This document shows positions 16,495-60,000 of a DNA stretch of 64,000 bases, piece by piece (within the stretch, counting starts at the first letter, position 1; the number at the start of each line of letters is the position of its first letter). Made by a program: the position numbers and the translations under genes. Source of the stretch: Planomicrobium okeanokoites (GTDB lineage Bacteria; Bacillota; Bacilli; Bacillales_A; Planococcaceae); the NCBI RefSeq assembly GCF_003428875.1, contig NZ_QQRS01000003.1, forward strand, positions 62,001 to 126,000, given 5' to 3'. The notes beneath the pieces are model-generated. The model did not search any database. It saw only the letters and a list, made by a program, of their open reading frames with translations, and was not told the DNA's origin.

Positions 16495-17555
16495 GTCGTA
16501 TAAATGGATTATGATGTCGTATAGAATCGTTTTAGTGTCGTATAAATTGTTTTTAGTGACGGATAGCCGAGTTTAGCTCATACGAATAAAGAAGAGTGTA
16601 AAGTTGCGGCCGCTTCGGCGCTCCGGAGATGCCTTCCGCAACAAGCCTGGCTGGAGTGATGCCAGTCTTGTTGCTTCGGCTACTCCATAGCTGCGCCTTT
16701 GCTCGGAGTAGGGGTTAAGAGGAAAAAAGATGGAAGAAGGAACGGTTCTGGAAGTTTGTTGTCTTTAGTTCATTTCTACGGACCTTCTATTGAATAGGGT
16801 CGTATAGCGTTAGAGCTATGCCATATAGAGGAATCTTGTTGTCGTATAGAACCGTTTTGGTGTCGTATAAATTGTTTTTAGTGACGGATAGCCGATTTTA
16901 GCTCATACGAATAAAGAAGAGTGTAAAGTTGCAGCCGCTTCGGCGCTCCGGAGATGCCTCCCGCAACAAGCCTGGCTGGAGTGATGCCAGTCTTGTTGCT
17001 TCGGCTACTCCATAGCCGCGCCTTTGCTTGGGGTGGGGGTTAAGAGGAAGAAAGTTGGAAGAAGGAGCGGTTCTGGAGGTTTGTTGATTAAGATTTATTT
17101 CTTCTGTACCTTCTATTGAATGGGGACTTATAGCGTTAGAGCTATGCCATATAGAAGGATCTTGTTGTCGTATAGAATCGTTTTGGTGTCGTATAAAACT
17201 TTTTTAGTGTCGGATAGCTAATTTTAGCTTATGCGAATAAAAATGAGTTTAAAGAGCCGCTTCGGCGCTTCGGAGATGCCTCCCGCAACAAGCCTGGCTG
17301 GAGTGATGCCAGTCTTGTTGCTTCGGCTACTCCATAGCTGCGCCTTTGCTCGGAGTAGGGGTTAAGAGGAAAAAAGATGGAAGAAGGAACGGTTCTGGAA
17401 GTTTGTTGTCTTTAGTTCATTTCTACGGACCTTCTATTGAATAGGGTCGTATAGCGTTAGAGCTATGTTATATAGAAGGATCTTGTTGTCGTATAGAATC
17501 GATTTGGTGTCGTATAAATTGTTTTTAGTGACGGATAGCCGAGTTTAACTCATAT
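16495..17555 (+). repeat. Tandem 325-bp macro-repeat carrying GTCGTATA 21-bp arrays and B hairpins
   Basis: The gap after nagB holds four arrays of a 21-bp unit whose core is GTCGTATA (or GTGACGGATA, GCCATATA). They start at about 16495, 16799, 17124 and 17446. Equivalent cores lie at 16537, 16862, 17187 and 17509, so the whole block repeats every 322-325 bp. Between arrays lie B elements (16606-16710, 16931-17035, 17254-17360), each with a stem GCAACAAG-c-CTGGC against GCCAG-t-CTTGTTGC. No coding sequence is credible. Copies differ at only scattered bases, so duplication was recent. Confidence 0.85.
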
Positions 17556-17603
17556 TTCGCCCAAAAGACGCTTTACAAGAAGCTGGGAGGGCTTGGTTTG
17601 AAA

Positions 17604-17643
17604 CAGCTGGCGCACGCCAGCTGCCTGGGGCGGCGAGCCGCCC
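17604..17643. repeat. C-type GC-rich twin hairpin
   Basis: CAGCTGGCG-CA-CGCCAGCTG (17604-17623) is followed by GGGCGGC-GA-GCCGCCC (17628-17643). The same pair of palindromes recurs three times at 20.5-21.1 kb. Confidence 0.85.
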
Positions 17644-17688
17644 GATGAAATCAGCTCTTTTTCTTTTGATTTGCGGTTTTTGTTATTT

Positions 17689-17751
17689 ATCTTACAGTTT
17701 TGAACTTTTATCTTATGATTTCACTTTTTTATTTTACGCTTCGCGTTTCGT
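17689..17751 (-). repeat. CGTAAGAT-type 21-bp array (three units)
   Basis: Three 21-bp units begin ATCTTACAG, ATCTTATGA and ATTTTACGC on the plus strand, that is, CGTAAGAT-like cores on the minus strand. The array lies beyond the C hairpin, opposite in direction to the GTCGTATA array before it. The remaining sequence to the next gene holds only the Fur-like box and promoter. Confidence 0.7.
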
Positions 17752-17975
17752 ATCCAACAATCAGTATTTATGTCCAATTCCACGAATTATAAAACCTTGA
17801 AACTGCTGAAGGCCCATCAGATATCTATAAAAAGCGCCTCTTCTATCCCTCTGGTCAGACTTTCAAAGCCGACCATTGCCCTAGTTGCCTCCCCAAACTC
17901 AATTCCACTCAAGTTTTATTCCTGAAAAAGGCTTCAAAATGATTGTTACAAATAGGTAAAATTTATTAAATTATC

Positions 17976-17990
17976 AAATAATGATTATCA
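17976..17990. promoter_or_regulatory. Fur-family operator candidate
   Basis: AAATAATGATTATCA matches the 7-1-7 Fur inverted repeat TGATAATnATTATCA at 12 of 14 defined positions. It overlaps the -35 region of the nucleotidase promoter. PerR or Zur boxes are similar, so the exact regulator is open. Confidence 0.5.
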
Positions 17991-18012
17991 AAAGCCGCCT
18001 GTTTAGTATAAT
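17985..18012 (+). promoter_or_regulatory. Candidate promoter of the 5'-nucleotidase gene
   Basis: TATAAT at 18007-18012 and TTATCA at 17985-17990 with 16-base spacing. The -35 is inside the Fur-like box, which would suit repression. Confidence 0.5.
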
Positions 18013-18050
18013 TAAATTGATTCGCAAACTAAGCAGAAGGAGCTGGAAGA

Positions 18051-20003
18051 ATGTCAATGTATAGAAGATTGGCGATGGTGCTGGCGGCACTGGTATTAGC
18101 TTTAAGCGGTTTGTTTACCGGAGGAGCCGCGGACGCGGCAAAACCTGATAAGGGCAATAAATTGAAGCCGATCGATGTATCGCTTCGCATAATGGGCACG
18201 ACGGATTTGCATACGAACTTCATGAATTACGATTATTACCAGGATAAAGTGTCCAACGAATTGGGCCTAGCGAAAACGGGTGTGTTAATAGAAGAAGCCC
18301 GCGCGGAAAACCCGAATAATCTTTTATTGGACAACGGAGATTTGATCCAAGGAACGCCGTTCGGCGCGTATAAAGTGTCGGTGGATCCGCTTGAGGAAGG
18401 CGAATTGCACCCGGCATATGCGGCACTCGAATCCCTTGAATTCGATGCGTCGACGCTCGGGAACCACGAGTTCAACTTCGGGTTGGATTATTTGGACGAG
18501 GCATTGGATGATGCTCCGTTCCCGGTGCTTAACGCAAACGTGCTGGATGCGGCAACGGGAGAGAATAAATACCAGCCTTACACAGTAATCGACAAGGAAG
18601 TCGTTGATGAGATGGGCAGAACACGTACGCTGCAAGTAGGCGTCATCGGTGTTGTTGCACCGAAAATCATGCAATGGGACCGTACGCATCTTGAAGGCAA
18701 AGTCATTGCCGAAGACGCTGTGCAGTCAGTTGAGAAATTCATTCCGGAAATGAAAGCGGAAGGGGCTGACGTCATTGTCGTTCTTTCGCATTCAGGAATT
18801 GGCGATGCAACTCATGAAATCGGTGAAGAAGATGTAACGTACCAGATTTCACAAGTCGAAGGTGTTGATGCCATCATCACGGGCCACGACCACGATGTCT
18901 TCCCTGGTGCATACGGTGATTTGCCGAATGTCGATCAGGAAAAAGGCACTATCAACGGCACACCGGTTGTCATGGCCGGCAATTTCGGCAGCCATCTGGG
19001 TGTCATTGATTTGACGTTGAGCCCGCGCGGCAACGGAAAGCGCTGGGTGGTAACTTCCGAGAAAGCGGAACTGCGCGAAATCGATTCAACGACTGGAGAA
19101 GTTGCTGAAGAGGTAGTGGAAGCGGTCAAGGAAGCGCACGAAGGCACGATTGAATACGTTAACACACCGGTTGCTGAAACGACAGCGCCGATCAATAGTT
19201 ATTTTGCTTTGGTGAATGACGATCCATCCATTCAATTGGTCAATAACGCTCAGACTTGGTATGTGGAGCAGCAGGTAGCAGGCACGGCGAACGAGGACTT
19301 GCCGATTCTTTCAGCTGCGGCACCGTTCAAAGCAGGCGGGCGGAATGGCGGCGATTATTACACCAATATCGAAGCCGGACAGATTGCGATTAAAAACGTC
19401 GCTGACTTGTACGTTTTCGACAACACGACATTCGCATTGAAAATGACGGGTGCAGATGTGCAGGAATGGCTGGAAATGTCAGCTGGCCAATTCAATCAGA
19501 TCGATCCGAACGCTGTGGGTGAGCAGCAATTGATCAATAACGATTTCCGTACGTACAACTTCGATGTCATCGACGGCGTCACGTATGAAATCGATGTTAC
19601 GGAGCCGGCGAAATATGACCTGGCCGGCAATGTAATCAATGAAGGCGCAAACCGCATCAAGAACCTTTCTTATGCAGGCGAGCCGATCGATCCGAGCCAG
19701 GAATTCCTGGTAGTGACGAATAATTACCGCGCAAGCGGCAGCTTCCCGGGTGTTGTCAACGCAACGGAAGTGATTGACTATGCTTATGAGAACCGCCAAG
19801 TAGTCATTGATTATTTGGAAGGACTCGGCACCATCGATCCTTCTGCAGACAACAACTGGACATTCGCGCCGGTTGCTGGCGAGCAGTCAATCGTCTTCGA
19901 GACATCCAACAATGCTCAGGACAAAATTCCGGCAGACAGCGGCATCACGTATATTGCGCCGACTGTGAATGGTTTTGCCAAGTATGGCATTGCGATCGAC
20001 TAA
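18051..20003 (+). CDS. Secreted bifunctional metallophosphatase/5'-nucleotidase
   Basis: A 650-residue exported enzyme of the UshA/CpdB/YfkN type, which releases phosphate from extracellular nucleotides. A Sec signal covers about residues 1-30. The calcineurin-like metal motifs follow in order: GTTDLHTNF, LLDNGDLIQG, STLGNHEFNFG, VLSHSGI and ITGHDHDVFPG. The C-terminal 5'-nucleotidase domain begins near residue 355, with APFKAGGRNGG and FDNTTFALKMTG. There is no LPXTG or clear C-terminal anchor, so it is probably released or loosely wall-bound. AGAAGGAG precedes the ATG. A Fur-like box overlaps the promoter. A strong terminator follows. Confidence 0.9.
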   Translation: MSMYRRLAMVLAALVLALSGLFTGGAADAAKPDKGNKLKPIDVSLRIMGTTDLHTNFMNYDYYQDKVSNELGLAKTGVLIEEARAENPNNLLLDNGDLIQGTPFGAYKVSVDPLEEGELHPAYAALESLEFDASTLGNHEFNFGLDYLDEALDDAPFPVLNANVLDAATGENKYQPYTVIDKEVVDEMGRTRTLQVGVIGVVAPKIMQWDRTHLEGKVIAEDAVQSVEKFIPEMKAEGADVIVVLSHSGIGDATHEIGEEDVTYQISQVEGVDAIITGHDHDVFPGAYGDLPNVDQEKGTINGTPVVMAGNFGSHLGVIDLTLSPRGNGKRWVVTSEKAELREIDSTTGEVAEEVVEAVKEAHEGTIEYVNTPVAETTAPINSYFALVNDDPSIQLVNNAQTWYVEQQVAGTANEDLPILSAAAPFKAGGRNGGDYYTNIEAGQIAIKNVADLYVFDNTTFALKMTGADVQEWLEMSAGQFNQIDPNAVGEQQLINNDFRTYNFDVIDGVTYEIDVTEPAKYDLAGNVINEGANRIKNLSYAGEPIDPSQEFLVVTNNYRASGSFPGVVNATEVIDYAYENRQVVIDYLEGLGTIDPSADNNWTFAPVAGEQSIVFETSNNAQDKIPADSGITYIAPTVNGFAKYGIAID

Positions 20004-20022
20004 TAAAATTTTGAGTAAGTGG

Positions 20023-20050
20023 CCCATCCGCGGGAGCGGGTGGGTTTTTT
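20023..20050 (+). terminator. Intrinsic terminator after the nucleotidase gene
   Basis: CCCATCCGC-GGGA-GCGGGTGGG followed by TTTTTT. Confidence 0.9.
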
Positions 20051-20088
20051 GCTGGGTTTTTGGTGATATTCGCTTTGGCATGTAAGCT

Positions 20089-20172
20089 ATCGTATAAATC
20101 TATTTTGATGTCGTATAGAATCGTTTTGATGTCGTATAACTTGATAACGGTGACGGATAGCTGGTTTTGCCT
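20089..20172 (+). repeat. GTCGTATA 21-bp array
   Basis: Cores at 20089 (ATCGTATA), 20110, 20131 and 20152 (GACGGATA) are exactly 21 bp apart, immediately after the nucleotidase terminator. Confidence 0.85.
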
Positions 20173-20210
20173 CATATATAATAAATGGACATTAAAGTAA
20201 GAGGGAGTTC

Positions 20211-20315
20211 GTAGCCGCTTTGGCGCTCTGGAGAAGCCTCCCGCAACAAGCCTGGCTGGAGTGATGCCAGTCTTGTTGCTTCGGCCACTCCAATGCCGCG
20301 CCTTTGCTTGGGATG
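20211..20315 (+). repeat. B element, fourth copy
   Basis: Nearly identical to the B elements in the nagB downstream region, with the stem GCAACAAG/CTTGTTGC extended by CTGGC/GCCAG. No open frame is convincing. Confidence 0.75.
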
Positions 20316-20402
20316 GGGTTGGGAGCAGGAGAGTTGAAGAGGAGAGGATTCTGGAAGTGTGTTGTTTCGAGTTTATTTCTGCGGGTCCTTCTATTGAATG
20401 GG

Positions 20403-20507
20403 GGCGTATAGCTTGAGGGAGATGTCGTATAGATTGGTTTTGGTGTCGTATAGAGTCGCTTTATTGTCGTATAAATCGGTTTTAGTGACGGATAGCCGAT
20501 TTTAGTT
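20403..20507 (+). repeat. GTCGTATA 21-bp array, five units
   Basis: Cores at 20403, 20424, 20445, 20466 and 20487, all 21 bp apart; the last is the variant GACGGATA. Confidence 0.85.
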
Positions 20508-20560
20508 CATTTCCATCAAAAATGTCGCCAAATAAGAAGCTACAAGAGATTGGTTTGAAA

Positions 20561-21195
20561 CAGCTGGCGCACGCCAGCTGTCTGGGGCGGCGCGCCACCC
20601 GATCAAAGCAGTTCTTGGTCGGGTGACTTATAGTCTTTGTTTTTTATCTTACGTTTTTGAAGTTCTATCTTACGTTTTTGTGTTTCTATCTTACGATTTC
20701 ATCATGCTATCTTACGGTTTGTGTTTCTTATCGAACATTAAATAAAATTACCACTTTTCTCAAAGAGGTCAAAATCGGTTTTGAAACAGCTGGCGCACGC
20801 CAGCTGTCTGGGGCGGCGCGCCGGCCGATCAAAGCAGTTCTTGCACTATTGTCTTATGGTTTTTGTTTTTAATCTTATGTTTTTGAAGTTCTATCTTACG
20901 TTTTTACGCTTTTATCTTACGATTTCATCATGCTATCTTACGGTTTGTGTTTCTTATCGAACATTAAATAAAATTACCTCTTTTCTCAAAGAGGACAAAA
21001 TTGGTATTGAAACAGCTGGCGCACGCCAGCTGCCTGGGGCGGCGCGCCGCCCGATCACAACAGTTCTTGCTCTGTTGTCTTATGGTTTTTGTTTTTTATC
21101 TTACGGTTTGGGATTTTTATCTTACGTTTTTGAAGTTCTATCTTACGATTTCGCGATTCTATTTTATGTTTGAGAATTTTTATCTAACGGTTCTT
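20561..21195 (-). repeat. Three copies of a 226-bp module: C twin hairpin plus CGTAAGAT 21-bp array
   Basis: C hairpins begin at 20561, 20787 and 21013, and the following arrays begin at 20625, 20851 and 21077; each series is exactly 226 bp apart. Array units read ATCTTACG plus 13 variable bases, so the CGTAAGAT core is on the minus strand. That makes the arrays sense-oriented downstream of the minus-strand oxidoreductase gene, whose stop is at 21206. Open frames across the arrays encode seven-residue repeats such as FYLTFLC and are by-products of the 21-bp period. Confidence 0.85.
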
Positions 21196-21205
21196 GCGTC
21201 TGCTT

Positions 21206-22684
21206 CTAGACCAACCGCTTCAAAGCAATGGAGCGGGCGGCGTGGATGCCGCTTGTGGCTGCGCCGATTGTGCCGCCGCCTGGGAAGACGTGGTCGCCGC
21301 AGACGTAGAGGTTGGGAATGCCGGAATGATGCGAGATGGAATTGAACAGGGCGGAGTCCAAGGTTTGGGGGAAGCCGCCGACGAAGCCGTTCGGTCTGCC
21401 GGTGTAACGCTCCCATGCTTTTGGCGCGCCTGTTTCAAGATGCACAATTGATTCGCGGAAACCGGGAATTTGCTGTTCGATTGCCTGGAGCAAGCGCTCA
21501 GTTAGGATTTCTCTGGTGGCTTCATATTTTTCCTGCGTATCCCAAAAGCCGGCTTTGGAATGGGTGGAAATTGTCACGGTCTGATAGCCGTCAGGCGCGC
21601 GTAAAGTGTCGCCCGGAAGAGAGGCGGACATGAAAAAGTGGGCACCTTCAGCCATGCCGGCTCCTGTTGAAATCTGCCGGAAAGGAGGCAGTGGCTGAGT
21701 CAGTTTACTGGAATCGATCGCAATATAGAGAGTCATGGTGGTCCATGTTTCACTTGTTGCACCCTCGAGCAGGGGCTTTTTCAACTTGCTTGCAAGTTCA
21801 GGTGTCAGCATGCCAGGCAGCAGGTGGAGCGGGGCATTGACGATGACTGCATCGGCTTGATATTGATTGCCACGGTGATCGGTTGCCTGCCAGCCCTTAT
21901 CGGTTTGCGCCAATTGGGTGACGGTGCGGCGCTTTTTCAGCACGCCGCCGTTCTCTGTTATGCTGTCGCCCATGAGCTCGGCAAAGCGGTACAGTCCGCC
22001 GGGTACGTAATATGCACCTTCATGATAGATATCGAGCGCTACGGCAGCCAGCAAATATGACACATCTTCGGAGCCGGTCTGCATGCTGTCGATCAGGAGA
22101 CCGTCCAGCATATGGCGGAACGCGGAGAGCTGTTCAAGGCCGTGGTGTTTCAGACGGTTGCCGAGCGTCTTATTGAAATGCTGAAGAAGTTTCACATGGA
22201 CCGGGCGGATGGCGCCAGTCAAGGCTGCCCATTCCTTCGCTGTTGCCGGTGGCAGTGCAGGAAGCGGGCCCATCAATGTGCGGACGATTGAAGCGGTCTC
22301 GTAGATTTCTTTGTAAAAGGAGCGGATCTTCGACTCGTAGGCGGGGAAGTGGCTGACGATTTGATCGACATGCTGGTCCCGGTCTTTGATGAATACAAAT
22401 TTATGATCAGGGTGGATCATTTCCATTACCGTTTCCAATGGTTCGAGCGGAAACGGCTTCCCGAGGAACCGGAAAATCCGTTCATGGATGCCGCCGCTCT
22501 CCAGACCCATGCCGAGCGTGGCACCGGCAGGGTAGAGGAATTGATGCCGTTTGAATTTCCCTGCGCATCCGCCCAGTTCCGAAGATGCTTCGAGAAGTGT
22601 GACGCGTTCCCCGTTTTTTGCCAGCAGCGCACCAGCGGTCAATCCGCCGATGCCGGCGCCTATAACTAAGATGTTTTTCGGCAT
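21206..22684 (-). CDS. Phytoene desaturase-like FAD-dependent oxidoreductase
   Basis: A 492-residue flavoprotein of the CrtI/CrtN/CrtO-like amine-oxidase family. The N-terminal dinucleotide-binding motif is VIGAGIGGLTAGALLAKNGE ending in an acidic residue (LLEAS). The C-terminal FAD motif is NLYVCGDHVFPGGGTIGAA with a GIHAAR end. Carotenoid desaturases, oxidases and retinol saturases share this fold. No squalene synthase-like or other crt gene is adjacent, so a carotenoid role is only plausible. GGAGGGG places the start at the ATG at 22684 rather than the GTG at 22690. Its 3' end abuts the 21-bp arrays with no ordinary terminator. Confidence 0.75.
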   Translation of the reverse strand: MPKNILVIGAGIGGLTAGALLAKNGERVTLLEASSELGGCAGKFKRHQFLYPAGATLGMGLESGGIHERIFRFLGKPFPLEPLETVMEMIHPDHKFVFIKDRDQHVDQIVSHFPAYESKIRSFYKEIYETASIVRTLMGPLPALPPATAKEWAALTGAIRPVHVKLLQHFNKTLGNRLKHHGLEQLSAFRHMLDGLLIDSMQTGSEDVSYLLAAVALDIYHEGAYYVPGGLYRFAELMGDSITENGGVLKKRRTVTQLAQTDKGWQATDHRGNQYQADAVIVNAPLHLLPGMLTPELASKLKKPLLEGATSETWTTMTLYIAIDSSKLTQPLPPFRQISTGAGMAEGAHFFMSASLPGDTLRAPDGYQTVTISTHSKAGFWDTQEKYEATREILTERLLQAIEQQIPGFRESIVHLETGAPKAWERYTGRPNGFVGGFPQTLDSALFNSISHHSGIPNLYVCGDHVFPGGGTIGAATSGIHAARSIALKRLV

Positions 22685-22929
22685 GTCCACCCCTCCTTGG
22701 GAATTTTATTGATACACAATCGAATTTATTTGAAATGAAATTTTTTGAATATGGAAAAGATGCGGATTTCGGAATAGCCAGGCAAAAATTGCGAAGCTTA
22801 ACGTATTTATTAAAGTACCATAATTACTGGCGGCGAGAAAATCTGTGGATTGCAAAGATGCATAATATTCCATATTCTCACAGCTGTCCGGTTGTGCTAC
22901 GCTGAATACAATAAATGGAGGGATTGAAG

Positions 22930-29659: not shown

Positions 29660-30085
29660 ATGGAGTTCAATGCGAAGAATTTTGGGCAGATCCTGCGGTT
29701 TCTGAGGGAGCATGACGGCTTGTCGATGCTGTCGCTGGGGAAAAAGCTGGGGACGTCGGCCAGCCGCATCAAGAGTTGGGAAAACGGTGACTCGGTGCCG
29801 TCGGCGAAATGGATTGTGATGCTGAGCAGCGTGCTGGATGTGCCGGTGGATGTGCTGCTGATTACGCCGAAAGAAGAAATCGTGCATTACAGCGACGCGG
29901 AATGGGACGACATCATGAACGGCGTCGGGCCGGGAGATAAAGTGTTGGCGGAAGAGCCGGTAGTGCCGGAGCTGACGAAGGCTGATTATTTGGAGAGGCT
30001 GCTGTCGATTTCGTCGGGGTTGACCAAGCAGGATGTGTTGGAGTTATATACATTAGCGAAGGTGAAGGCGGAAAAAGGGAATTGA
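29660..30085 (+). CDS. XRE-family transcriptional regulator
   Basis: A 141-residue regulator. The N-terminal HTH covers about residues 5-60: FGQILRFLREHDGLSML, GTSASRIKSWENGDSVPS and WIVMLSSVLDVPVDVLL. The C-terminal part is acidic and ends in a helix (LERLLSISSGLTKQDVLELYTLA). GAGGTGTGAGGA precedes the ATG. A paired palindrome sits just upstream, suggesting it controls itself. Its targets are unknown. Confidence 0.8.
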   Translation: MEFNAKNFGQILRFLREHDGLSMLSLGKKLGTSASRIKSWENGDSVPSAKWIVMLSSVLDVPVDVLLITPKEEIVHYSDAEWDDIMNGVGPGDKVLAEEPVVPELTKADYLERLLSISSGLTKQDVLELYTLAKVKAEKGN

Positions 30086-30100
30086 CTGCCAAAAAAGCTC

Positions 30101-30215
30101 GAACGCGGATATATTTTTTTGAGCGCAGATATAATCTGCTGAACACGGATATAATTTTTTGAACGCGGATATAATCTCCTGAACGCGGATATAATTTTTT
30201 GAACACGGATATATG
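30101..30215 (+). repeat. GCGGATATA array with a 20-bp period
   Basis: Six units begin GAACGCGGATATA, GAGCGCAGATATA, GAACACGGATATA and so on at 30101, 30121, 30141, 30161, 30181 and 30201: exactly 20 bp apart. The array begins 15 bp after the XRE gene stop. The alternation of TTTTTT and CTGCT or CTCCT spacers suggests an underlying 40-bp duplication. Confidence 0.85.
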
Positions 30216-30268
30216 AAATAAGGAAGCCAAACCAGCATCTCACAAAGGTCAAAAGCATAAGAAAGGAC

Positions 30269-30349
30269 GCTTTTCGCTAGCGAAAAGCCCTGATTAGAGC
30301 AGATCCTAAAACAAAAAACAAAAAAAGACGCATTTCGCTTGCGAAATGC
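30269..30349. repeat. Two TTTCGC hairpins
   Basis: GCTTTTCGC-TA-GCGAAAAGC (30269-30288) and GCATTTCGC-TT-GCGAAATGC (30330-30349). The second keeps the stem through a paired change. A third copy is at 50804-50823, next to another array. Confidence 0.75.
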
Positions 30350-30388
30350 ATCCATTAAAAATGGTTTTAAGAAGGTTTCGTCAAAAAA

Positions 30389-31116: not shown

Positions 31117-31430
31117 GCCATATAGCAAGATGTTAGTGTCGTATAGATGATGGATAGTGTCGTATAAGCGTTTTTTGTTGTCGCATAAGCTTTTTAACAT
31201 CACAACACTCTCTTAACTACTACTCACTCAGTAAAAAAGCAGGATGGTCGCAGTCCGCCGCGCGGACTGCTGGGGCGGGGCCAGAGCCCCGCCCGTCTTT
31301 CGGCCAATAAGGGGGCTGCTCTTTGGCTGAAGGTTCGATGGCATATAGAGAAGCTTTATTGCCGTATAGAAAACTTTTGTTGTCGTATGGATAGAAGGCA
31401 GTATCGTTTAAACAGATTTTATTAACCTAT
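31117..31430 (+). repeat. Composite element: GTCGTATA array, D twin hairpin, second array
   Basis: Cores at 31117, 31138, 31159 and 31180, then GCAGTCCGC/GCGGACTGC (31250-31270) and GGGCGGGGC/GCCCCGCCC (31273-31294), then cores at 31340, 31361, 31382 and 31403. The second array begins 223 bp after the first. The element fills the divergent gap 30985-31525 and is the reverse complement in polarity of the copies at 40.5 and 43.5 kb. Confidence 0.85.
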
Positions 31431-40442: not shown

Positions 40443-40540
40443 ATAACAATCAGTTACTAGTTCAGTTAATGTAAGTGGAATACCCTTGAAAAGGGAGGGG
40501 TAAAACGTGTTGGGTTGAGCTTGTGTGAGGAGATGGAGTT

Positions 40541-40848
40541 TATACGACAGCAAACCGCCGCTATACGACAGCAAAAGTAATCTATACGACACTAAAAATC
40601 GCTTATACGACATCTAACCGTCACCCAAAGAGCGAAACCCCTTATTGGCCGAAACCGGGCGGGGCAGCAGCCCCGCCCCAGCAGTCCGCGCGGCGGACTG
40701 CGACCAATCGGATCTCCAAGCGAGTGAGTGGATGTGGATTGGGATACGTGAGTATGCGAAGTCTATACGACAACAAACCGCCGCTATACGATAACAAAAG
40801 CAATCTATACGACACTAAAAATCGCTTATACGACATCACCCCCCAATT
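40541..40848 (-). repeat. Composite element: two GTCGTATA arrays around a D twin hairpin
   Basis: TATACGAC cores on the plus strand at 40541, 40562, 40583 and 40604, twin hairpin GGGCGGGGC/GCCCCGCCC (40657-40678) with GCAGTCCGC/GCGGACTGC (40681-40701), then cores at 40764, 40785, 40806 and 40827. Total 308 bp. It lies in the divergent gap between the hydrolase and carboxypeptidase genes. Confidence 0.9.
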
Positions 40849-43463: not shown

Positions 43464-43489
43464 TGGTGTTAGTGTTAGCATATTCGGCT

Positions 43490-43797
43490 TATACGACACC
43501 AAAATGACGTTATACGACAACAAAAGCAATCTATACGACACTAAAAATCCCATATACGACATCTAACCGTGACCCAAAGAACCAAACCCCTTATTGGCCG
43601 AAAACGGGCGGAGGCCGAAGCCCCGCCCCAGCAGTCCGCGCGGCGGACTGCGACCAATCGGATCTCCAGCCGAGTGAGGGAATGTGAATTGGGGCACGTG
43701 AGGATACTGAGTCTATACGACAACAAACCGACGCTATACGATACTAAAAGAGAGCTATACGTCAACAAATGGTATCCATACGACATAGCCCCCCATA
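43490..43797 (-). repeat. Composite element: two GTCGTATA arrays around a D twin hairpin
   Basis: TATACGAC cores at 43490, 43511, 43532 and 43553, a D hairpin at 43606-43651 (its first palindrome imperfect), then cores at 43714, 43735, 43756 and 43777. It is 308 bp, the same as the copy at 40.5 kb and in the same polarity. It lies between convergent genes. Confidence 0.9.
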
Positions 43798-46832: not shown

Positions 46833-46935
46833 TATACGGCAAAAAAGTTTATACGTCACTATAACGCCGCTATACGACACCATAAGCAATCTATACGACA
46901 CCAAATCGAATCTATACGACATCGCCACCACAAAA
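46833..46935 (-). repeat. GTCGTATA array between convergent genes
   Basis: TATACGAC-type cores on the plus strand at 46833, 46850, 46871, 46892 and 46913; all but the first interval (17 bp) are 21 bp. No D hairpin is attached. The array is sense-oriented downstream of the DUF817 gene on the minus strand. Confidence 0.85.
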
Positions 46936-46939
46936 AGTC

Positions 46940-50058: not shown

Positions 50059-50070
50059 CGGTTTTTGGCG

Positions 50071-50178
50071 AGTTGGGCATAAAACGGGTGAAGTTGGGCA
50101 TATTCGGATCAAAGTTGGGCATAAAAGGAGTAAAGTTGGGCATATTCAGCATGAAGTTGGGCATAAAATTTTGGGAGG
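50071..50178 (+). repeat. AGTTGGGCATA array, 21-bp period
   Basis: Cores at 50071, 50092, 50113, 50134 and 50155, each 21 bp apart, begin 13 bp after the PBP terminator and run in the gene's direction. Confidence 0.9.
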
Positions 50179-50320
50179 CAGCACCTGCCGTTTGTTTTCA
50201 AGATGAGATAAAACTTAATAATAGAATGACTGTATAAATCCTCCTCTTTTACCATTTTATTCAGAATACTTATGTTAAGCTTGAAGGAGACGAAATAAGA
50301 GGTAAAGGGGTAATTTATCT

Positions 50321-50803: not shown

Positions 50804-50823
50804 GCTTTTCGCAGGCGAAAAGC
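50804..50823. repeat. TTTCGC hairpin
   Basis: GCTTTTCGC-AG-GCGAAAAGC, nearly the same as the hairpin at 30269. Confidence 0.7.
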
Positions 50824-50842
50824 GAAAGTGCGAAAGACCGAA

Positions 50843-50878
50843 AACTGCCCTGGCCCAAGTGGCCCAGGGCAGTTTATT
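50843..50878 (+). terminator. Intrinsic terminator
   Basis: AACTGCCCTGGCC and GGCCCAGGGCAGTT form a strong stem followed by TATT, so the T-run is poor. Confidence 0.65.
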
Positions 50879-50881
50879 GCG

Positions 50882-50986
50882 AGTTGGGAGTAAAAGCGGT
50901 GAAGTTGGGAGTAAACACAGCAAAGTTGGGAGTAAATCGCATGAAGTTGGGAGTATTCGGACCAAAGTTGGGAGTAAAGCAAAATA
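50882..50986 (+). repeat. AGTTGGGAGTA array, 21-bp period
   Basis: Cores at 50882, 50903, 50924, 50945 and 50966, each 21 bp apart. They closely resemble the 50.07-kb array but have GAGTA in place of GCATA in the core. Confidence 0.9.
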
Positions 50987-51053
50987 GAGGAATATTCGTC
51001 TCGCACAAGGAATAGAATGTTAACAACACATCAACTTCAAATGGAGGTCTCTC

Positions 51054-53196: not shown

Positions 53197-53358
53197 CTAC
53201 CGTCTGCGCAGCTCCTCAGCAATCTGCTTCAGATATGCATTGCGTTCCTTCGTCAAATTCAGCCACATGACAATTACAAATATCGCAATTACGATTGGCA
53301 ATAAAGAAAGTAAAAGTCCTATAACCGGAAATATCGTAAACATCGCGTCACCCATCAT
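53197..53358 (-). CDS. Short single-helix protein (53 residues)
   Basis: A short gene of 54 codons. AGGAGGG at 53366-53372 is 7 bases before the ATG at 53358. The protein has one membrane helix (TIFPVIGLLLSLLPIVIAI and beyond) and then a basic amphipathic tail NLTKERNAYLKQIAEELRRR. It precedes the 90-residue gene and probably forms its operon. Function unknown. Confidence 0.6.
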   Translation of the reverse strand: MMGDAMFTIFPVIGLLLSLLPIVIAIFVIVMWLNLTKERNAYLKQIAEELRRR

Positions 53359-53638
53359 CAATCATCCCTCCTAGTACTTACTATACGGCTATACTTGGAA
53401 AATGTTTCAATAAAAAGAAACTCCATCAGTTTAATAAAATGATGTGAGGTTACATAAAGTTGAACAGGATTCTTTGGTTAATTTCATGTGCAAATCCAGG
53501 AATACAATATTGTTTATTTATTACGATAATCGGAGTAGTGTTTATAAGAACAATAGAAAAGTAGTGGTTTTGTAAAAATTTAAAAAGAAGATTCCCTCTG
53601 TTTTAGCTTTCAAAAATACAAACGAGGAGATGAATTCT

Positions 53639-54529: not shown

Positions 54530-54547
54530 AGAAATATACAGCAGTAA

Positions 54548-54578
54548 AAACCCGAGTGGTAATGCCGCTCGGGGTTTC
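54548..54578 (+). terminator. Intrinsic terminator after the GDPD gene
   Basis: AAACCCGAG and CTCGGGGTTT form a stem, with a weak T-run. Confidence 0.6.
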
Positions 54579-54602
54579 AACTTATTGAGAAAGCTAGGAA
54601 AC

Positions 54603-54734
54603 CGACATTCCACAAAACAGCTTCGCTTTCCTGGTGGCTCGCACTGAGCTAACTCGGTCTCGTTTCACTTCGTCCGAGTGGATCTCAGTAAATCGCTTAC
54701 TCACCTGGGAGTCTTCGCTGTTTTGTTCCATGTC
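54603..54734 (-). repeat. X element, copy 2 (reverse orientation)
   Basis: Reverse complement of the 52.2-kb element without the extra internal hairpin. AAAACAGC/GCTGTTTT and ACTCGG/CCGAGT stems are kept. The rest of the gap to 54871 has only a weak hairpin near 54829-54840. Confidence 0.8.
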
Positions 54735-54871
54735 TTAGAACCGCTTTCTATAAAGAAATAATCAAGCTATTTTTGTTTTCCAAGAGAAATAACCACGTGT
54801 TTCTTTAGATATAAAATGTAGCAGCAGGCAGCACCCTGCGGAACGCGTCCGTCTGTTTCTGAATCGCTTTG

Positions 54872-55213
54872 CTAGCTTACAGACTCTTCCTCCGGCGTAC
54901 CCAGCCGGTCCGTCAATGTTCTGTAAATATCATCAAAATGATGCTCTTCGTAGAACATCTCGTTATACGAAGCGGAACGGATAATCGCTTCCTTATCGAC
55001 TTTCACGACTTCGATCTGCACCGAATTGCTCTTGCCGGTCTCATCAATCTCACGCCGCTTCTCCTTCGCGAACGCATCCACATCGCGCGGCTCATACTGG
55101 CGGAACGTCTCCACGACTTCATTGAACACCGATATCGTATCTTCCTCGCTCTTGAACAGCCAATAATAATCCTTCTTCGCACTCGACAGGTGCAAATTCA
55201 ATTGATAATGCAT
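54872..55213 (-). CDS. Small soluble protein of unknown function
   Basis: A 113-residue protein starting HYQLNLHLSSAKKDYYWLF, with a charged middle (AFAKEKRREIDETGKSN) and an acidic helical end. GGAGG lies 7 bases before the ATG at 55213. No known domain was recognised. It is flanked by repeat elements on both sides. Confidence 0.55.
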   Translation of the reverse strand: MHYQLNLHLSSAKKDYYWLFKSEEDTISVFNEVVETFRQYEPRDVDAFAKEKRREIDETGKSNSVQIEVVKVDKEAIIRSASYNEMFYEEHHFDDIYRTLTDRLGTPEEESVS

Positions 55214-55399
55214 GTATAGTCCTCCTTCGGGAATAAAAAACCTATTTTCAATATGTTGTTCTATACCCGATTCTGGAGCGGGAAACCTTCTGACGGAGAA
55301 GTCCGCCAACAGCCTATTCGTGAGATAAGGAGGTGAAACCGTAAGATAAGTGGGACAAATTATAAGTTATTTTAGTACATCTTAAATTATTACAGTAGC

Positions 55400-55531
55400 C
55401 GATATTCCGCAAAACAGCTCCGCTTGCCTGGTGGCTTGCACTGAGCTAACTCGGCCTCGTTCCACTTCGTCCGAGTGGATCTCAGCACTTCGCTTGGTCA
55501 CCTGGGCGTCTTCGCTGTTTTGCTCCATATC
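55400..55531 (-). repeat. X element, copy 3 (reverse orientation)
   Basis: Like copy 2, bounded by GATATTCCGC and CCATATC. It shares all stems with copies 1 and 2. Confidence 0.8.
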
Positions 55532-55668
55532 TCTGGAGACTTCTCTTAGCACCTATGCTTAAAGCACCAAAGTGAATAATTTAAGCTAATTCTGTATTTC
55601 AACTTACATTGATAAAAAACATGAACATTCTCTTCAAAAGAAAAGAAACCATATATTACCCGAAAAAC

Positions 55669-55886
55669 GGGCGGGGCCACCAGCCCCGCCCAAAGCAGTC
55701 CGCCATGGCGGACTGCGACCAATCAGTTCTTTGCCCCAGAGTGAGGGGAAGGAAAAATAGGTGACGTTAACTAAAATGAGTTATACGTCACATAAAATAT
55801 TCTATACGGCAACAAAACAATTCTATACGACACTAAAATCAAGTTATACGTCAACATGCCCACTCTATCCGTCACTCAAAATGCTA
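55669..55886 (-). repeat. D twin hairpin followed by a GTCGTATA array
   Basis: GGGCGGGGC/GCCCCGCCC (55669-55691) and GCAGTCCGC/GCGGACTGC (55695-55716), then plus-strand cores TATACGTC, TATACGGC, TATACGAC, TATACGTC and TATCCGTC at 55782, 55803, 55824, 55845 and 55866. Polarity matches the 40.5-kb composite, but the left array is missing. The rest of the gap is unremarkable. Confidence 0.85.
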
Positions 55887-56004
55887 AACCCATCTTGAAC
55901 CTATCCCTTATTTGGGTTAAATTGGTAGATAGGCGCCATGTCATCTATAACAGAACATACATAATCTATTGCACCAAAAAATAGCGGAAGGAACGGATGA
56001 ACAT

Positions 56005-56622
56005 ATGAAAAAGATAACGAGAGCTTTCTATTTCAGCGTAGCGATTGCTCTGTTGGCGGGATGCGGCAACGATGTGGAGCCGGAAGCGACGGACTCAGAG
56101 CAGACGCCAGCGGCTGAAACGCCAGCCGAGGAAACAGAGGATGGCGCGACAACGGACCAAAGTAGGGAAGAGGATGATTCCGCAGCTAAGGAATCCGAAA
56201 CTAGCGAATCAGAAGACACAGACTCTGAAACAGGGGAATCCGAGTTGGACGCCTACTCCAGCGAACAGATCGAATACGCCAGAGTGTGGCTGCAGCTCGG
56301 ACCGAACCAGGAAATCGACGGTTTGTATGTGAAGCAAATTCCGTCAGGCACGCCGCTTAATCCGAATGATGAGACGAGCGGCGTCTATCCGGAAGACGTC
56401 ATCCAGCTGGCGGGCTCGCGCCTTGTGGATGGTTCCGTGACATACAGCGGCAACGGCGACGGAACGATCAATGTATACAATGTGCCGCTGCGCTGGGACG
56501 GGGAATATCCGGCTGGCGAAGAGTTCTATGAAGAGCTTATCAATGATACCGAACTTGTGGAGATCGACACGGGAGACGACGAAGAAGTCATCCGTTTGAT
56601 CAAGTTGCAGGAAACAGAATAA
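56005..56622 (+). CDS. Lipoprotein of unknown function
   Basis: A 205-residue lipoprotein. The lipobox ALLAGCGND follows a short hydrophobic signal. An acidic Glu/Thr/Ser linker covers about residues 25-80, typical of Bacillales surface lipoproteins. The exported domain contains ARVWLQLGPNQEIDGLYVKQ and YSGNGDGTINVYNVPLRWDG. The domain is not recognised. GGAAGGAACGG precedes the ATG. A bidirectional terminator follows. Confidence 0.65.
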   Translation: MKKITRAFYFSVAIALLAGCGNDVEPEATDSEQTPAAETPAEETEDGATTDQSREEDDSAAKESETSESEDTDSETGESELDAYSSEQIEYARVWLQLGPNQEIDGLYVKQIPSGTPLNPNDETSGVYPEDVIQLAGSRLVDGSVTYSGNGDGTINVYNVPLRWDGEYPAGEEFYEELINDTELVEIDTGDDEEVIRLIKLQETE

Positions 56623-56629
56623 CGAAAAA

Positions 56630-56680
56630 ACACCTTCAATCCGCGTACATAAAAAATGTACCGAACCGAAGGTGTTTTAT
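56630..56680. terminator. Bidirectional terminator
   Basis: AAAACACCTTC and GAAGGTGTTTT enclose an inner GTACAT/ATGTAC stem. Confidence 0.85.
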
Positions 56681-56694
56681 TTATCCAACTGAAA

Positions 56695-57411
56695 TTAAGG
56701 ATTCGTCGACCAAAGGCCAGCTGACTTCAACAGCACGCGCGGATGCAGTTTCAACTGGGCAACCATCATCTGCGCCATATCTTCAGGCTGCATGACTTTG
56801 TCCGGATTGCCGTCCGTCAAATTAGACTCGATCGCGAGGTCAGTCGCAACGGTGCTCGGCGTCAAGGCAGTCACACGGATGTTGTGCTTTCTGACTTCCA
56901 GCATCAACGATTCCGTGAGTCCCATCAAACCGAATTTCGATGCGCTGTACGCGCTGGTTATCGGTGCCCCTTTTTGGCCCGCAGTCGACGCGATATTGAT
57001 AATCTCGCCAGACTCGCGCTCGATCATTTGCGGCAGAACGGCACGCGTTACATAATAAACGCCCATCAGGTTCGTGTCGATGATCGCTTTCCATTCTTCC
57101 GGCGACAGTTCCATGAACTTGCCGAATTTGCCGATGCCAGCGTTGTTGATCAGAATATCGATTGATCCAAGTTCTTCTGTTATATGTTCAACTGCTGCGT
57201 TGACCGCTTCCATATCCGCGACGTCCGCCACAGCGAATACCGTTTTCACGCCGTATTGCTCCAGCTCCGCAGCCACTTTCTCCAAGTTTGCAGCCGTGCG
57301 TCCGACTAATCCTACATTAATGCCTTCCGCTGCGAAAGCGATCGCCGTAGCCCGGCCGATCCCTTTACCGGCTCCTGTGATTAACGCGTTTTTCCCTTTT
57401 ATATCTTGCAT
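56695..57411 (-). CDS. 3-ketoacyl-ACP reductase-like SDR
   Basis: A 238-residue classical [15 protein letters not shown] is the NADP(H) loop, with Arg in [11 protein letters not shown] suggesting NADP preference. NNAG and [11 protein letters not shown] complete the active site. It resembles FabG-type or other general reductases. The substrate is unknown. Monocistronic, with GAGGAG upstream of the start. Confidence 0.88.
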
Positions 57412-57568
57412 AATGAACAGCTCCTCTAATATCGTTTCGTCATCTAGTGTAGCAAAGAGGGCAGGTGAAAATCCAAGTGGAGAACTTGGGGAGGAATAAA
57501 AATGACAGCAGAAGGGAGGTCTGCTGTCAGTGAAAGTATATTTTGTTGTTCATATATCTGGAGGGGAC

Positions 57569-58120
57569 CTACTCGATCAAATTATCGCCCTCATCATAAA
57601 AGGTTAAATCAACCGGAAAAGCTCGTTCCACGTCACTTGGTATCTTCACGGATTGCAAAAACCTCTGATCATCCGATATATCGAATGTAATATCATACTC
57701 CCCGCTGAGAGCCGTTGCTAAAACATGGTCAACCGTCAAATCAGGATTTTCGCCGTATAAAATCAAATATTCCCCTTTATTGGTTTCAATGACTTGATAA
57801 GAAGAGTTAAGGAAACCGGAGCCATATCCTGCATGGTCGATCTTAAACTTTCCATTCAACCCTTTCAACAAGCGCGCATAACCGAAATCACCATCATCCA
57901 ATTGAAAAAAGATGATATGGGAAGTGGTATCCGCTATTTGTTTCACCTCTAATACTTCAGGATTAAGCTCTTCGCTGGGTGGCCGGTTCAGCCAGGTATC
58001 CAGATTGGCTTGAATGGCTGCTTCATTATCTTCAATATAATATTCATTCGTATAATAAATAGAAAACCCTATCACCGCTACAGCAATTATAGCAACGAAG
58101 AGCAGTATTATTTTTTTCAG
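57569..58120 (-). CDS. Membrane-anchored protein with a probable CTG start
   Basis: A 183-residue protein if read from a CTG at 58118-58120. The frame from CTG gives a basic start (KK), then a membrane helix (IILLFVAIIAVAVIGFSIYY). GGAGG lies 7 bases upstream. The first ATG/GTG/TTG codon in frame is a GTG at 58075, in the middle of the helix. The exported domain (TTSHIIFFQLDDGDFGYARL) is not recognised. The terminator was not identified. Confidence 0.55.
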   Translation of the reverse strand: MKKIILLFVAIIAVAVIGFSIYYTNEYYIEDNEAAIQANLDTWLNRPPSEELNPEVLEVKQIADTTSHIIFFQLDDGDFGYARLLKGLNGKFKIDHAGYGSGFLNSSYQVIETNKGEYLILYGENPDLTVDHVLATALSGEYDITFDISDDQRFLQSVKIPSDVERAFPVDLTFYDEGDNLIE

Positions 58121-58188
58121 ATAAATGCCTCCTTTAGTAATGAACTTAACTTATGAGCGATTCTATTCTGCTCATCTGATTACCTCTA

Positions 58189-58383
58189 TTATTTTTTATT
58201 GGGGAAATAGGCTGCCCCAGCATATTTCTTCATTCTCCAAGCACTGATAACAGTCATAATAAGACCCGCAATCAAAATATAAATGGTATATTCTCCTGAT
58301 CTCTCCATTAAAAAAACCATCAATGCACTGACAGTAAGCCCTACGCTGATTCCCGTCATAATAACCCAGAATAACAGCTTCAT
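58189..58383 (-). CDS. Small two-helix membrane protein
   Basis: A 64-residue protein with helices LLFWVIMTGISVGLTVSALM and YTIYILIAGLIMTVISAW and a basic tail. AAAGGCGG lies before the ATG at 58383. Not recognised. It lies upstream of the CTG-start gene, 68 bp away on the same strand. Confidence 0.55.
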   Translation of the reverse strand: MKLLFWVIMTGISVGLTVSALMVFLMERSGEYTIYILIAGLIMTVISAWRMKKYAGAAYFPNKK

Positions 58384-58618
58384 ATTTAGCCGCCTTTCTT
58401 CATTAAGCACATGATTCTTCTTAATTAAAACTTAAAGAATTCCCTAACACTTTGAGAATCTCACCATCTGAAATAATTCTTATATAAATTATAAGCGTAT
58501 CATCCAAATAAAGGAAGTATCTTATTGTCAGTATTCTTAATACACAGTTTGTTTACTCCTGAAAAATTCGGGAACACTACCAGACAAGTTGATTTTTAAT
58601 TTAAAGGAGGAAACATAA

Positions 58619-59296
58619 ATGGCTAAAGTATTAGCAGTCCTATCAAGCGGACACAAAGACGAGGAAAACAATTACGAAACCGGCTGGTGGGGTGAAGAAT
58701 TATTCGCACCGATGGAAATTTTAGAAGAAGCGGGGCATGAATTGGAACTGGCTTCACCGCTCGGCGGCAAACCGACAATCGACCAGGCGAGCCTGACGGA
58801 AGAAACGGATCCACAAGGGAAGTACAAGAAAATGTATGAAGAGGGCTTGGCTGACAATACCAAAAAGCTGTCGGACATCAATCCCGAAGACTATGACGCA
58901 GTGTTCATCGTAGGCGGCCACGGTGCCATGTTTGACCTGGCGAAAAACGAAGCCTTGCACAACATCATTAATGGCGTCTACGACAACGGCAACATCGTGT
59001 CGGCCGTCTGCCACGGACCAGCTCCGTTGATCTGGACAAAACGTCCAAACGGCAAAAGCATCATCGATGGACTTGACGTAACAGGCTATCCTGAAAACGT
59101 TGAACCTGAAGGTCTTCCAGCTTTATTGCCATTCAGCCTTGAAGAGGAAATGGATAAAGTAGGGAACTACACAGCGGACCAAAAAGTGGTCTGGGGCAAT
59201 GAGCAATTGTTGACGGGACGCGACCCGTTTTCTGCTGAAGAGTTGGGCAACGAATTGGTGAAAGCACTGGATAAACGCAGCAAGAAGGAAGACTGA
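58619..59296 (+). CDS. DJ-1/PfpI-family glutamine amidotransferase-like protein
   Basis: A 225-residue Hsp31-like protein. The nucleophile elbow is VSAVCHGPAPLIW with Cys at about residue 136, and FIVGGHGAMFDLA carries the family Gly-Gly-His. Relatives act as glyoxalase III or deglycase, or chaperone. AAAGGAGG precedes the ATG. It is followed after 3 bp by a monooxygenase-like gene, so both may handle reactive carbonyls or quinones. Confidence 0.88.
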   Translation: MAKVLAVLSSGHKDEENNYETGWWGEELFAPMEILEEAGHELELASPLGGKPTIDQASLTEETDPQGKYKKMYEEGLADNTKKLSDINPEDYDAVFIVGGHGAMFDLAKNEALHNIINGVYDNGNIVSAVCHGPAPLIWTKRPNGKSIIDGLDVTGYPENVEPEGLPALLPFSLEEEMDKVGNYTADQKVVWGNEQLLTGRDPFSAEELGNELVKALDKRSKKED

Positions 59297-59299
59297 GCG

Positions 59300-59584
59300 A
59301 TGGAACCCATCGTCGTTACAGCCATCCTGAAACCCAAGGAACACATGGAAGCACAGCTATTGGCGGAACTGAACAAAGTACAGGAAGCGTCGCGCGCTGA
59401 AGCCGGCTGCCTGCATTATGTGCTCCACCAATCGATCGAAGACGACACGTTCGTCCTCCACGAAACGTGGCAGGACATCGACGCCCTGCAGAACCACATC
59501 GGCTCCGCCCATTACCAGGAATACCGCACGAATACGGCGGATCTGGTGGAAAAGCGGGAAGTCTTTAAGCTGAAGGTACTTTAA
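59300..59584 (+). CDS. Antibiotic biosynthesis monooxygenase-domain protein (YgiN-like)
   Basis: A 94-residue dimeric ferredoxin-like barrel. VTAILKPKEHMEAQLLAELN, EAGCLHYVLHQSIEDD and FVLHETWQDIDALQNHI are typical of the ABM or quinol monooxygenase family. The start lies 3 bp after the DJ-1-like stop. A strong terminator follows. Confidence 0.85.
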   Translation: MEPIVVTAILKPKEHMEAQLLAELNKVQEASRAEAGCLHYVLHQSIEDDTFVLHETWQDIDALQNHIGSAHYQEYRTNTADLVEKREVFKLKVL

Positions 59585-59601
59585 ATCAATAAAACCAAAT
59601 G

Positions 59602-59641
59602 CAGAACTCCGCGAACGATTGCGGAGTTCTGCATTTTTTTT
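59602..59641 (+). terminator. Intrinsic terminator
   Basis: GCAGAACTCCGC and GCGGAGTTCTGC form a 12-bp stem followed by ATTTTTTTTT. Confidence 0.95.
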
Positions 59642-59693
59642 GTAAGAGGGAAGGAAGGGAAAAGGAGAGGTGTAAATATTAAGTGAATCCGCT

Positions 59694-60000
59694 TATACGA
59701 CACTAAAAATGTTCTATACGATAACAAACAGAGTCTATACGACAACATCATCCGGCTATACGAAAACAAATCCCCGCTATACGAAAACAACCCCATTTAT
59801 TACCCGAAAAACGGGCGGGGCTGCAGCCCCGCCCAAAGCCGTCCGCCCCGGCGGACGGCGACCAATCAGCTTTTCATCAGAGAGTGGAGCAAAAATGGAT
59901 TCGTTAGATACCAAGGCGAAACCGTAAGATAAAATACTCAATCCGTAAGATAAAAACTGAAAACCATAAGATAAAAACCGAAAACCATAACAAAAAATAA
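59694..60000 (-). repeat. Composite element joining GTCGTATA and CCGTAAGATA arrays around a D hairpin
   Basis: TATACGAC cores at 59694, 59715, 59736, 59757 and 59778, D hairpin at 59813-59859 with GCCGTCCGC/GCGGACGGC, then CCGTAAGATA cores at 59922, 59943, 59964 and 59985. Total 307 bp. Here the second array is a different class from the first, on the opposite strand. It fills the convergent gap 59585-60067. Confidence 0.9.

Follow-up and report, generated by a model that had tools for sequence, protein, structure and literature searches.

Direct-repeat arrays with many core words, phased at two helical turns in intergenic DNA of Planomicrobium okeanokoites

Direct repeats in intergenic DNA are known from several bacterial systems, and we compare with them here a set of arrays from a 64,000-nucleotide stretch of the Planomicrobium okeanokoites genome (contig NZ_QQRS01000003.1, positions 62,001 to 126,000; hereafter the window). 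In each of these arrays a constant core and a variable spacer recur every 20 or 21 bp. Plasmid iterons are likewise direct repeats about two helical turns (about 20-22 bp) apart that are read on one face of the helix, at an origin beside the rep gene. In contrast, the arrays described here are scattered over the chromosome in many gaps and use many core words, and no Rep family was found in a scan of 30 proteins from the 65 predicted window genes and of 10 array-flanking proteins elsewhere in the genome. Repetitive extragenic palindromes (REP) and bacterial interspersed mosaic elements (BIME) are tied to Y1 transposases (RAYT). They resemble the arrays in being intergenic, in lying at gene ends and in having hairpins nearby, but unlike in REP systems no PF01797 match was present in this genome, which is 99% complete. 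The repeats of CRISPR (clustered regularly interspaced short palindromic repeats) measure about 23-47 bp and have longer unique spacers; the arrays, with a period of 20-21 bp and cores of 8-12 bp, do not fit this format (cas genes were not searched for).

The closest published system is that of the STAR elements of Staphylococcus. According to the accessible part of their description (PMC3532100), these are arrays of direct repeats between genes that have a conserved core, spacers particular to locus and lineage, varying copy number and a patchy distribution, all features shared by the arrays, and their function is unknown. However, STAR elements have one 14-bp core and spacers of 40-44 bp, whereas many cores, a 20-21 bp period and spacers of about 10-13 bp are found here. 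The STAR core T(G/A/T)TGTTG(G/T)GGCCC(C/A) matched the window twice at two mismatches, 3.13 matches being expected, and neither match was in an array. The TAACTGA heptamer repeats, as far as the available portion of PMC4679880 describes them, also consist of numerous sets of intergenic direct repeats in distantly related lineages, and their binder is unknown. Theirs is a seven-base word that in that strain lies, for the most part, directly before start codons, and no helical lattice is mentioned in that portion; two adjacent heptamers with up to two mismatches occurred nowhere in the window. For H-NS, the excerpted account (PMC5418058) describes helically phased sites of high affinity from which cooperative protein assembly on DNA starts, a principle that the arrays could share, but there a regulatory element holds two sites separated by about 10 turns and here many arrays are phased at two turns. 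The open literature searched contained no account of arrays like these, most subscription papers lying outside that search, and an Rfam search of the window at the gathering score returned no match.

Lattice, core words and genomic position

A lag self-match scan of the window (42 positions compared, at least 62% equal) gave 22 clusters at lag 21, 14 at lag 42 and four at lag 63. Lags 20, 40 and 60 gave one cluster each, all from the GCGGATATA array, and the remaining lags between 8 and 63 gave none, save lags 15 (one), 33 (two) and 61 (one). Twenty third-order Markov (Markov-3) simulations of the window produced no cluster at lags 19-22. The 22 arrays at lag 21 and the one at lag 20 occupy 11 gaps (Table 1). 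When written in rows, each array showed a core that stays constant and a spacer that varies; the cores are degenerate in the array at 31325 and in parts of those at 16817, 17674 and 55762. The observation of phased intergenic arrays is thereby confirmed, and the phenomenon is larger than first described: a sequence-only reading had reported several core families on one 21-bp lattice in at least ten gaps, and its cores, its 20- and 21-bp periods and its three to six units per array were broadly borne out. Its statement that every core ends in TA with A-rich sequence behind it was too simple, because GTCGTATA is followed by G or A and then by mixed bases with a T-run, and AGTTGGGC/A-RTA mostly by AA or TT.

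The arrays are not confined to the window. The genome (3.3 Mb in 27 contigs, the window lying on the one labelled C21) was examined over 513 kb, made up of the window and 24 stretches mostly picked for pattern matches. Intergenic and coding clusters numbered 73 and 4 at lag 21, 11 and 0 at lag 20, 0 and 0 at lag 19, and 1 and 0 at lag 22, with 21% of the bases being intergenic. Five stretches picked without pattern matches (100 kb) gave just two clusters at lag 21 and two at lag 20, so array density is uneven. Whole-genome pattern searches, which permitted other spacings too, recovered 27 neighbouring pairs of GTCGTATA and 21 of CGTAAGATA, every one at 21 bp, as well as 65 AGTTGGGNRTA pairs (contigs C12, C21 and C22) and 19 CGCSGATATA pairs, 10 of 10 among the matches listed being at 20 bp. 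Exact GTCGTATA pairs lie on contigs C5 and C21, and on two contigs each in the relatives G005, G007 and G026; those of CGTAAGATA extend to contigs C19 and C23. The sequence-only reading would have counted a lack of 21-bp enrichment outside the window as a refutation; arrays are in fact present far beyond it.

Counted by eye, the genome holds twelve core words, four of them main classes. Minor cores, also read by eye, are GARCGCSGATATAAT and TGCGSGCGATTA at 20 bp and CGCGGATAAA, TCGCYGATAAA, TGATCGGCTA, TTGTTTGCGTTATA and TTGCGTGCGATT at 21 bp. A GGACAGTATT-type core recurs at lag 20 in this genome and at lag 21 in relatives, which have further cores (AGTTGATCGTA, AGTTGCTCGTA and others). Single-linkage clustering chained 206 of 215 arrays into one; the class table was built from hand-chosen reference words, and 23 of the 215 arrays fall in no class. 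Core words were largely confined to arrays, with inside and outside counts of 41 and 0 for AGTTGGGARTA, 42 and 3 for CGTAAGATA, 53 and 10 for TGTCGTATA, 42 and 8 for AGTTGGGCRTA, 12 and 6 for CGCSGATATA, and 9 and 4 for TGATCGGCTA. Three of the ten outside TGTCGTATA cores belong to an array severed by a stretch end, and five of the eight outside AGTTGGGCRTA cores to one array that the scan missed. One Markov-3 simulated set contained, in the same order, 0, 1, 8, 0, 3 and 0 of these words.

Within the main classes the spacing is nearly invariant. Considering the stretches of this genome and its relatives together, consecutive same-strand cores were found at 21 bp 53 times for TGTCGTATA, 56 for CGTAAGATA, 85 for AGTTGGGCRTA and 58 for AGTTGGGARTA (plus one at 20 bp); that is, 252 of 253 consecutive cores less than 42 bp apart sit at exactly 21 bp, and the other 25 core pairs within 70 bp sit at 42 or 63 bp. 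The GCGATTA class is looser (19 bp twice, 20 bp 17 times, 21 bp once and longer seven times), and occasional 20-bp steps occur inside 21-bp classes in G008 and G063. The CGCSGATATA spacing was 20 bp at 23 of the 23 places listed from six genomes of the window's family, and 21 bp at 10 of 10 places in G411, a member of another family. One array of G110 alternates 20 and 21 bp over its first nine intervals and is then mostly at 20 bp, and mixed 20/21 arrays are also present in stretches of Neobacillus and Bacillus sp. SD088. In 84 arrays the A+T power at 10-10.5 bp was 0.206, compared with 0.100 for permuted columns. The quantity shared across arrays is two helical turns and not one unit length. 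The sequence-only reading had equated 21 bp with two turns of the helix, an interpretation that is strengthened both by the 20/21 alternation in other genera and by this A+T periodicity. The sister cores AGTTGGGC and AGTTGGGA differ by one base and are often close neighbours, yet their pairs were 85 CC, 59 AA and none mixed, with three pairs showing another base.

Arrays occupy 38 of the 264 gaps of at least 60 bp. Convergent gaps make up 23 of these 38, against 54 of the 264 overall (odds ratio 9.6, p 3e-9). A simple home-made hairpin-plus-T rule was applied to the 78 gene ends that face an array: in 62 cases it predicted a terminator ahead of the array, in 3 solely on its far side, and in 13 it found none; at convergent gap sides without arrays one was predicted on 48 of 62. 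Because the predicted terminators mostly precede them, the arrays do not replace terminators, and of the DNA- or RNA-binding partners initially envisaged the former are favoured. The orientation of arrays relative to neighbour genes is not fixed. In the window, GTCGTATA arrays are on the plus strand left of 31.4 kb and on the minus strand right of 40.5 kb. A replication-polarity reading of this pattern was dropped since AGTTGGG arrays occur in both orientations on contigs C12 and C22, and a replication terminus was rejected as the window has no dif-like site and GC skew shows no clean switch; what we take to be a dif-like site is on another contig. No gene family common to the array neighbours was seen in 20 neighbours. 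An HTH_3 (XRE-like) gene at window positions 29660-30085 stops 8 bp before the 20-bp GCGGATATA array and is a candidate reader.

Constraint and turnover between species

Spacer identity within and between arrays was 0.51 v 0.52, 0.57 v 0.60, 0.48 v 0.51, 0.43 v 0.52 and 0.62 v 0.64 in five classes, and units two apart were more alike than adjacent units in four of the five. Since two spacers of one array resemble each other no more than two from different arrays, the units are not fresh copies, and simple tandem duplication as the origin of the arrays is contradicted. A comparison of 42 pairs of orthologous arrays from sister genomes (three further pairs were dropped as class-switched) showed mismatches of 7.9% in cores, 25.3% in spacers, 20.2% in intergenic flanks and 12.1% in coding flanks. 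Indel runs of 1 bp numbered 3 per 3,095 array bp and 126 per 13,893 flank bp, and 21-bp runs 8 in arrays and 3 in flanks. This comparison is biased toward constraint, as core patterns located the arrays in one of both compared sequences. A three-way test, which used a third genome to detect the arrays and retained class-switched pairs, is less detection-biased. Its 35 comparisons gave mismatches of 14.2% in cores, 30.8% in spacers and 18.7% in flanks (Fisher p for core versus flank 3e-4). Indels of 1-3 bp numbered 6 in 2,140 array bp versus 88 in 13,219 flank bp (Fisher p 0.035), those of 4-19 bp 0 versus 28, and those of unit size 12 versus 1 (Fisher p 6e-10). The signal is weaker than in the 42-pair test and has the same direction. 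An initial count (47 pairs, class-switched ones included; core 13.7%, spacer 28.1%, flank 19.1%) is superseded by these two tests. Spacer letters vary freely between species, and spacer length shifts mainly by whole units. The selection for spacing suggested by the sequence-only reading is supported by the near-exact period within and between species, the depletion of 1-bp indels, the common whole-unit changes and the free spacer letters; of the free drift between relatives that would have refuted it, spacing shows hardly any (a few 20-bp steps), whereas cores do turn over.

The same gaps often bear arrays in sister species, and the core class may differ. The gap at 43.4 kb has GTCGTATA here and in G007, CGTAAGATA in G005 and both in G063. 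At 30.1 kb the 20-bp period is retained in five genomes with a core that is mostly CGCGGATATA here, CGTWGATATA in G005, G007 and G026, and CGRCGGATATA in G060; this gap has no array in G063. The gap of the array at 46840..46936 has none in G005 or G007, and the gap at 50.9 kb holds five units here and in G005 and a single unit in G007 and G026. The sister species thus offer natural comparisons, since a given gap may carry one core or another, a single unit or no array at all.

Concerning the wider distribution, exact GTCGTATA pairs were found in this genome and in 3 of 35 same-genus relatives searched. In a genus set of 46 genomes, CGTAAGATA pairs occurred in 6 and AGTTGGGNRTA pairs in 12, and among Bacilli CGCSGATATA pairs occurred in 7 of 398 genomes and 4 of 145 genera. 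Arrays of like style are present in sampled stretches of Neobacillus, G380, G110 and G411, many of the other-genus stretches having been picked around pattern matches. The G380 array (L167:10631-11100) has about 20 units at 21 bp with the core CGRGATAAAC. G048 and G036 gave three intergenic clusters at lag 20/21 of A-rich or coding-like appearance, and G037 gave none at these lags and several at others. A Chitinophagaceae metagenome-assembled genome also has 21-bp arrays, with less variable spacers. A phage origin was rejected after three viral scans that yielded one contig each, the two examined (L150 and L151) showing just two units each, and a plasmid origin after one array block tested had no plasmid match.

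Candidate explanations

We favour, at somewhat better than even confidence, the view that the arrays are helically phased DNA-level platforms for cooperative sequence-specific proteins. The free spacer letters of kept length, the exact cores, the purity of cores within arrays and the positions beyond terminators argue for sequence-specific proteins that would assemble in phase on DNA. Three to six near-identical recognition words two turns apart, elsewhere up to about 20, would place copies of one protein on one face of the helix, where they could assemble cooperatively. Each core word would then serve as a separate address, and its reader would probably be a different or diverged protein. Such complexes would stand in intergenic DNA that is presumably for the most part untranscribed, preferentially between convergent genes, and would most likely shape chromosome structure or form boundaries (as roadblock, supercoil or domain boundary) rather than serve as single-promoter operators; the boundary role is inferred from position. 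Platforms of this kind would be dispersed, multi-address protein landing sites of fixed helical geometry with no known reader, and would give a new view on how bacterial chromosomes separate transcription units. A broader version, which we consider tentative at best, is an addressing system of several Bacillales lineages, in which a shared core vocabulary would be read by one fast-diversifying, oligomerising DNA-binding family that sets transcription-unit boundaries; the core turnover on a fixed lattice in the same gap would then reflect co-evolution of address and reader. Several points weigh against platforms. The many core classes would require either a large number of proteins or a single family able to change its specificity. 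A scan of 50 proteins, encoded in the window or next to arrays, showed ordinary, unrelated functions and identified no binding protein. The initial suggestion of different binding partners fits the unmixed cores (144 to 0) but not any partner found. Any role is not essential in the genus, because AGTTGGGNRTA pairs are absent from 34 of 46 genomes and just one doubtful array turned up in 240 kb from four other Planococcus genomes (two of the four, G061 and G064, carry such pairs elsewhere). Core constraint was modest in the three-way test, indel runs of 2-16 bp were not clearly depleted in the 42-pair test (10 in arrays and 54 in flanks, the latter all of 2-11 bp with none of 12-16 bp), and convergent gaps are also the sites where neutral insertions harm least.

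This last point would equally suit selfish or neutral dispersed repeats, similar to REP or miniature inverted-repeat transposable elements, that spread with hairpins into harmless gaps and merely inherited the lattice. We regard this origin as rather unlikely, though arrays and GC-rich hairpins do form larger tandem units with periods of about 325 bp (window 16515-17554) and 226 bp (20554-21152), the CTTTTCGC...GCGAAAAG (or ATTTCGC...GCGAAAT) hairpin occurs in 7 of the 38 gaps with arrays and in none of the 226 without, the distribution across species is patchy, and four array-bearing relatives (G005, G007, G060 and G063) have Y1_Tnp matches. Against it, 1-bp and short indels are depleted although spacer sequence diverges faster than the flanks do, the spacers of an array were not copied from each other, and this genome, G003 and G026 bear arrays with no Y1_Tnp (RAYT) match. 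Were the arrays selfish, they would still be a repeat class whose length is better kept than its spacer sequence. DNA wrapping or gyrase sites between convergent genes, modelled on a BIME-like role and acting by shape and not through a sequence-reading protein, would account for the A+T periodicity and the convergent gaps; shape alone needs neither exact cores nor unmixed one-base sister classes beside free spacers, which makes this improbable. That the arrays act in RNA, within 3' untranslated regions, is very improbable: the 13 sides without a predicted terminator and the three with one only beyond the array would allow it, but the predicted terminators before most arrays and the unfixed orientation argue otherwise. 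LytTR proteins bind 9-bp repeats with 12-bp gaps, the same 21-bp geometry, and AgrA, in the accessible part of its published description, binds two direct repeats upstream of promoters. Ordinary operators of such direct-repeat regulators are nevertheless highly improbable, as the arrays favour gene ends over promoters and their cores are rare as isolated intergenic sites. Several cores, read by eye on the reverse strand, show T/A-rich bases, TA and then the address word, as would targets of TnpB-like RNA-guided proteins (a 5' TA-rich motif and a seed), and a single TnpB match is present in G003, a relative that carries arrays. However, PF07282 and PF01385 had no match in this genome, G005, G007, G026, G060 or G063, and this possibility is barely credible, being largely refuted for TnpB (no search aimed at other RNA-guided families was made). 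Within the reach of Pfam models, this genome contains neither a TnpB-type nor a RAYT-type system.

Further features of the window

Table 1. Repeat arrays and adjoining hairpins of the window (period in bp; coordinates are window positions)
Feature	Position	Strand	Basis
GTCGTATA array, 21 bp	16484..16578	+	lag scan, row reading
GTCGTATA array, 21 bp, first units degenerate	16817..16900	+	lag scan, row reading
GTCGTATA array, 21 bp	17141..17230	+	lag scan, row reading
GTCGTATA array, 21 bp	17464..17546	+	lag scan, row reading
CCGTAAGATA-type array, 21 bp, degenerate	17674..17748	-	lag scan, row reading
GTCGTATA array, 21 bp	20076..20167	+	lag scan, row reading
GTCGTATA array, 21 bp	20396..20497	+	lag scan, row reading
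CCGTAAGATA array, 21 bp	20618..20733	-	lag scan, row reading
CCGTAAGATA array, 21 bp	20841..20958	-	lag scan, row reading
CCGTAAGATA array, 21 bp	21058..21199	-	lag scan, row reading
GAACGCGGATATAAT array, 20 bp	30093..30226	+	lag scan, row reading
CTTTTCGC and ATTTCGC hairpins adjoining 20-bp array	30265..30350		
GTCGTATA array, 21 bp	31128..31200	+	lag scan, row reading
GTCGTATA-type array, 21 bp, degenerate	31325..31396	+	lag scan, row reading
GTCGTATA array, 21 bp	40527..40620	-	lag scan, row reading
Paired GC-rich hairpins separating two GTCGTATA arrays	40640..40712		
GTCGTATA array, 21 bp	40757..40845	-	lag scan, row reading
GTCGTATA array, 21 bp	43474..43574	-	lag scan, row reading
GTCGTATA array, 21 bp	43706..43771	-	lag scan, row reading
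GTCGTATA array, 21 bp	46840..46936	-	lag scan, row reading
AGTTGGGCATA array, 21 bp	50066..50181	+	lag scan, row reading
CTTTTCGC hairpin adjoining AGTTGGGAGTA array	50804..50826		
AGTTGGGAGTA array, 21 bp, 5 units	50871..50991	+	lag scan, row reading
GACGTATA/GTCGTATA array, 21 bp	55762..55886	-	lag scan, row reading
GTCGTATA array, 21 bp	59685..59814	-	lag scan, row reading
CCGTAAGATA array, 21 bp	59892..60018	+	lag scan, row reading

Besides the two places in Table 1, the CTTTTCGC/ATTTCGC hairpin was seen in stretches L065, L066 and L078. GC-rich hairpin pairs lie beside or between GTCGTATA arrays at 31254-31292, 43590-43670, 55655-55730 and 59800-59870 as well as at the tabulated place, and several are enclosed by an ATTGG/CCAAT outer stem; the arrangement with the arrays resembles a composite element. 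Two gaps (window 55400-55540 and L078:18200-18300) share a long, structured and dispersed element that reads AAACAGC...GCTGTTTTGC and contains a TTGCACTGAGCTAACTCGG motif, and a run of GGGTT repeats lies in a gap close to the end of contig C5 of the same genome (L061:5020-5127). In Methylobacter stretches (L016, L021 and L040), TATACGACA repeats adjoin a TTACGTTA motif that we presume to be integron-like. At the end of the window there is a DDE-type transposase gene with DUF772 (62428-63903).

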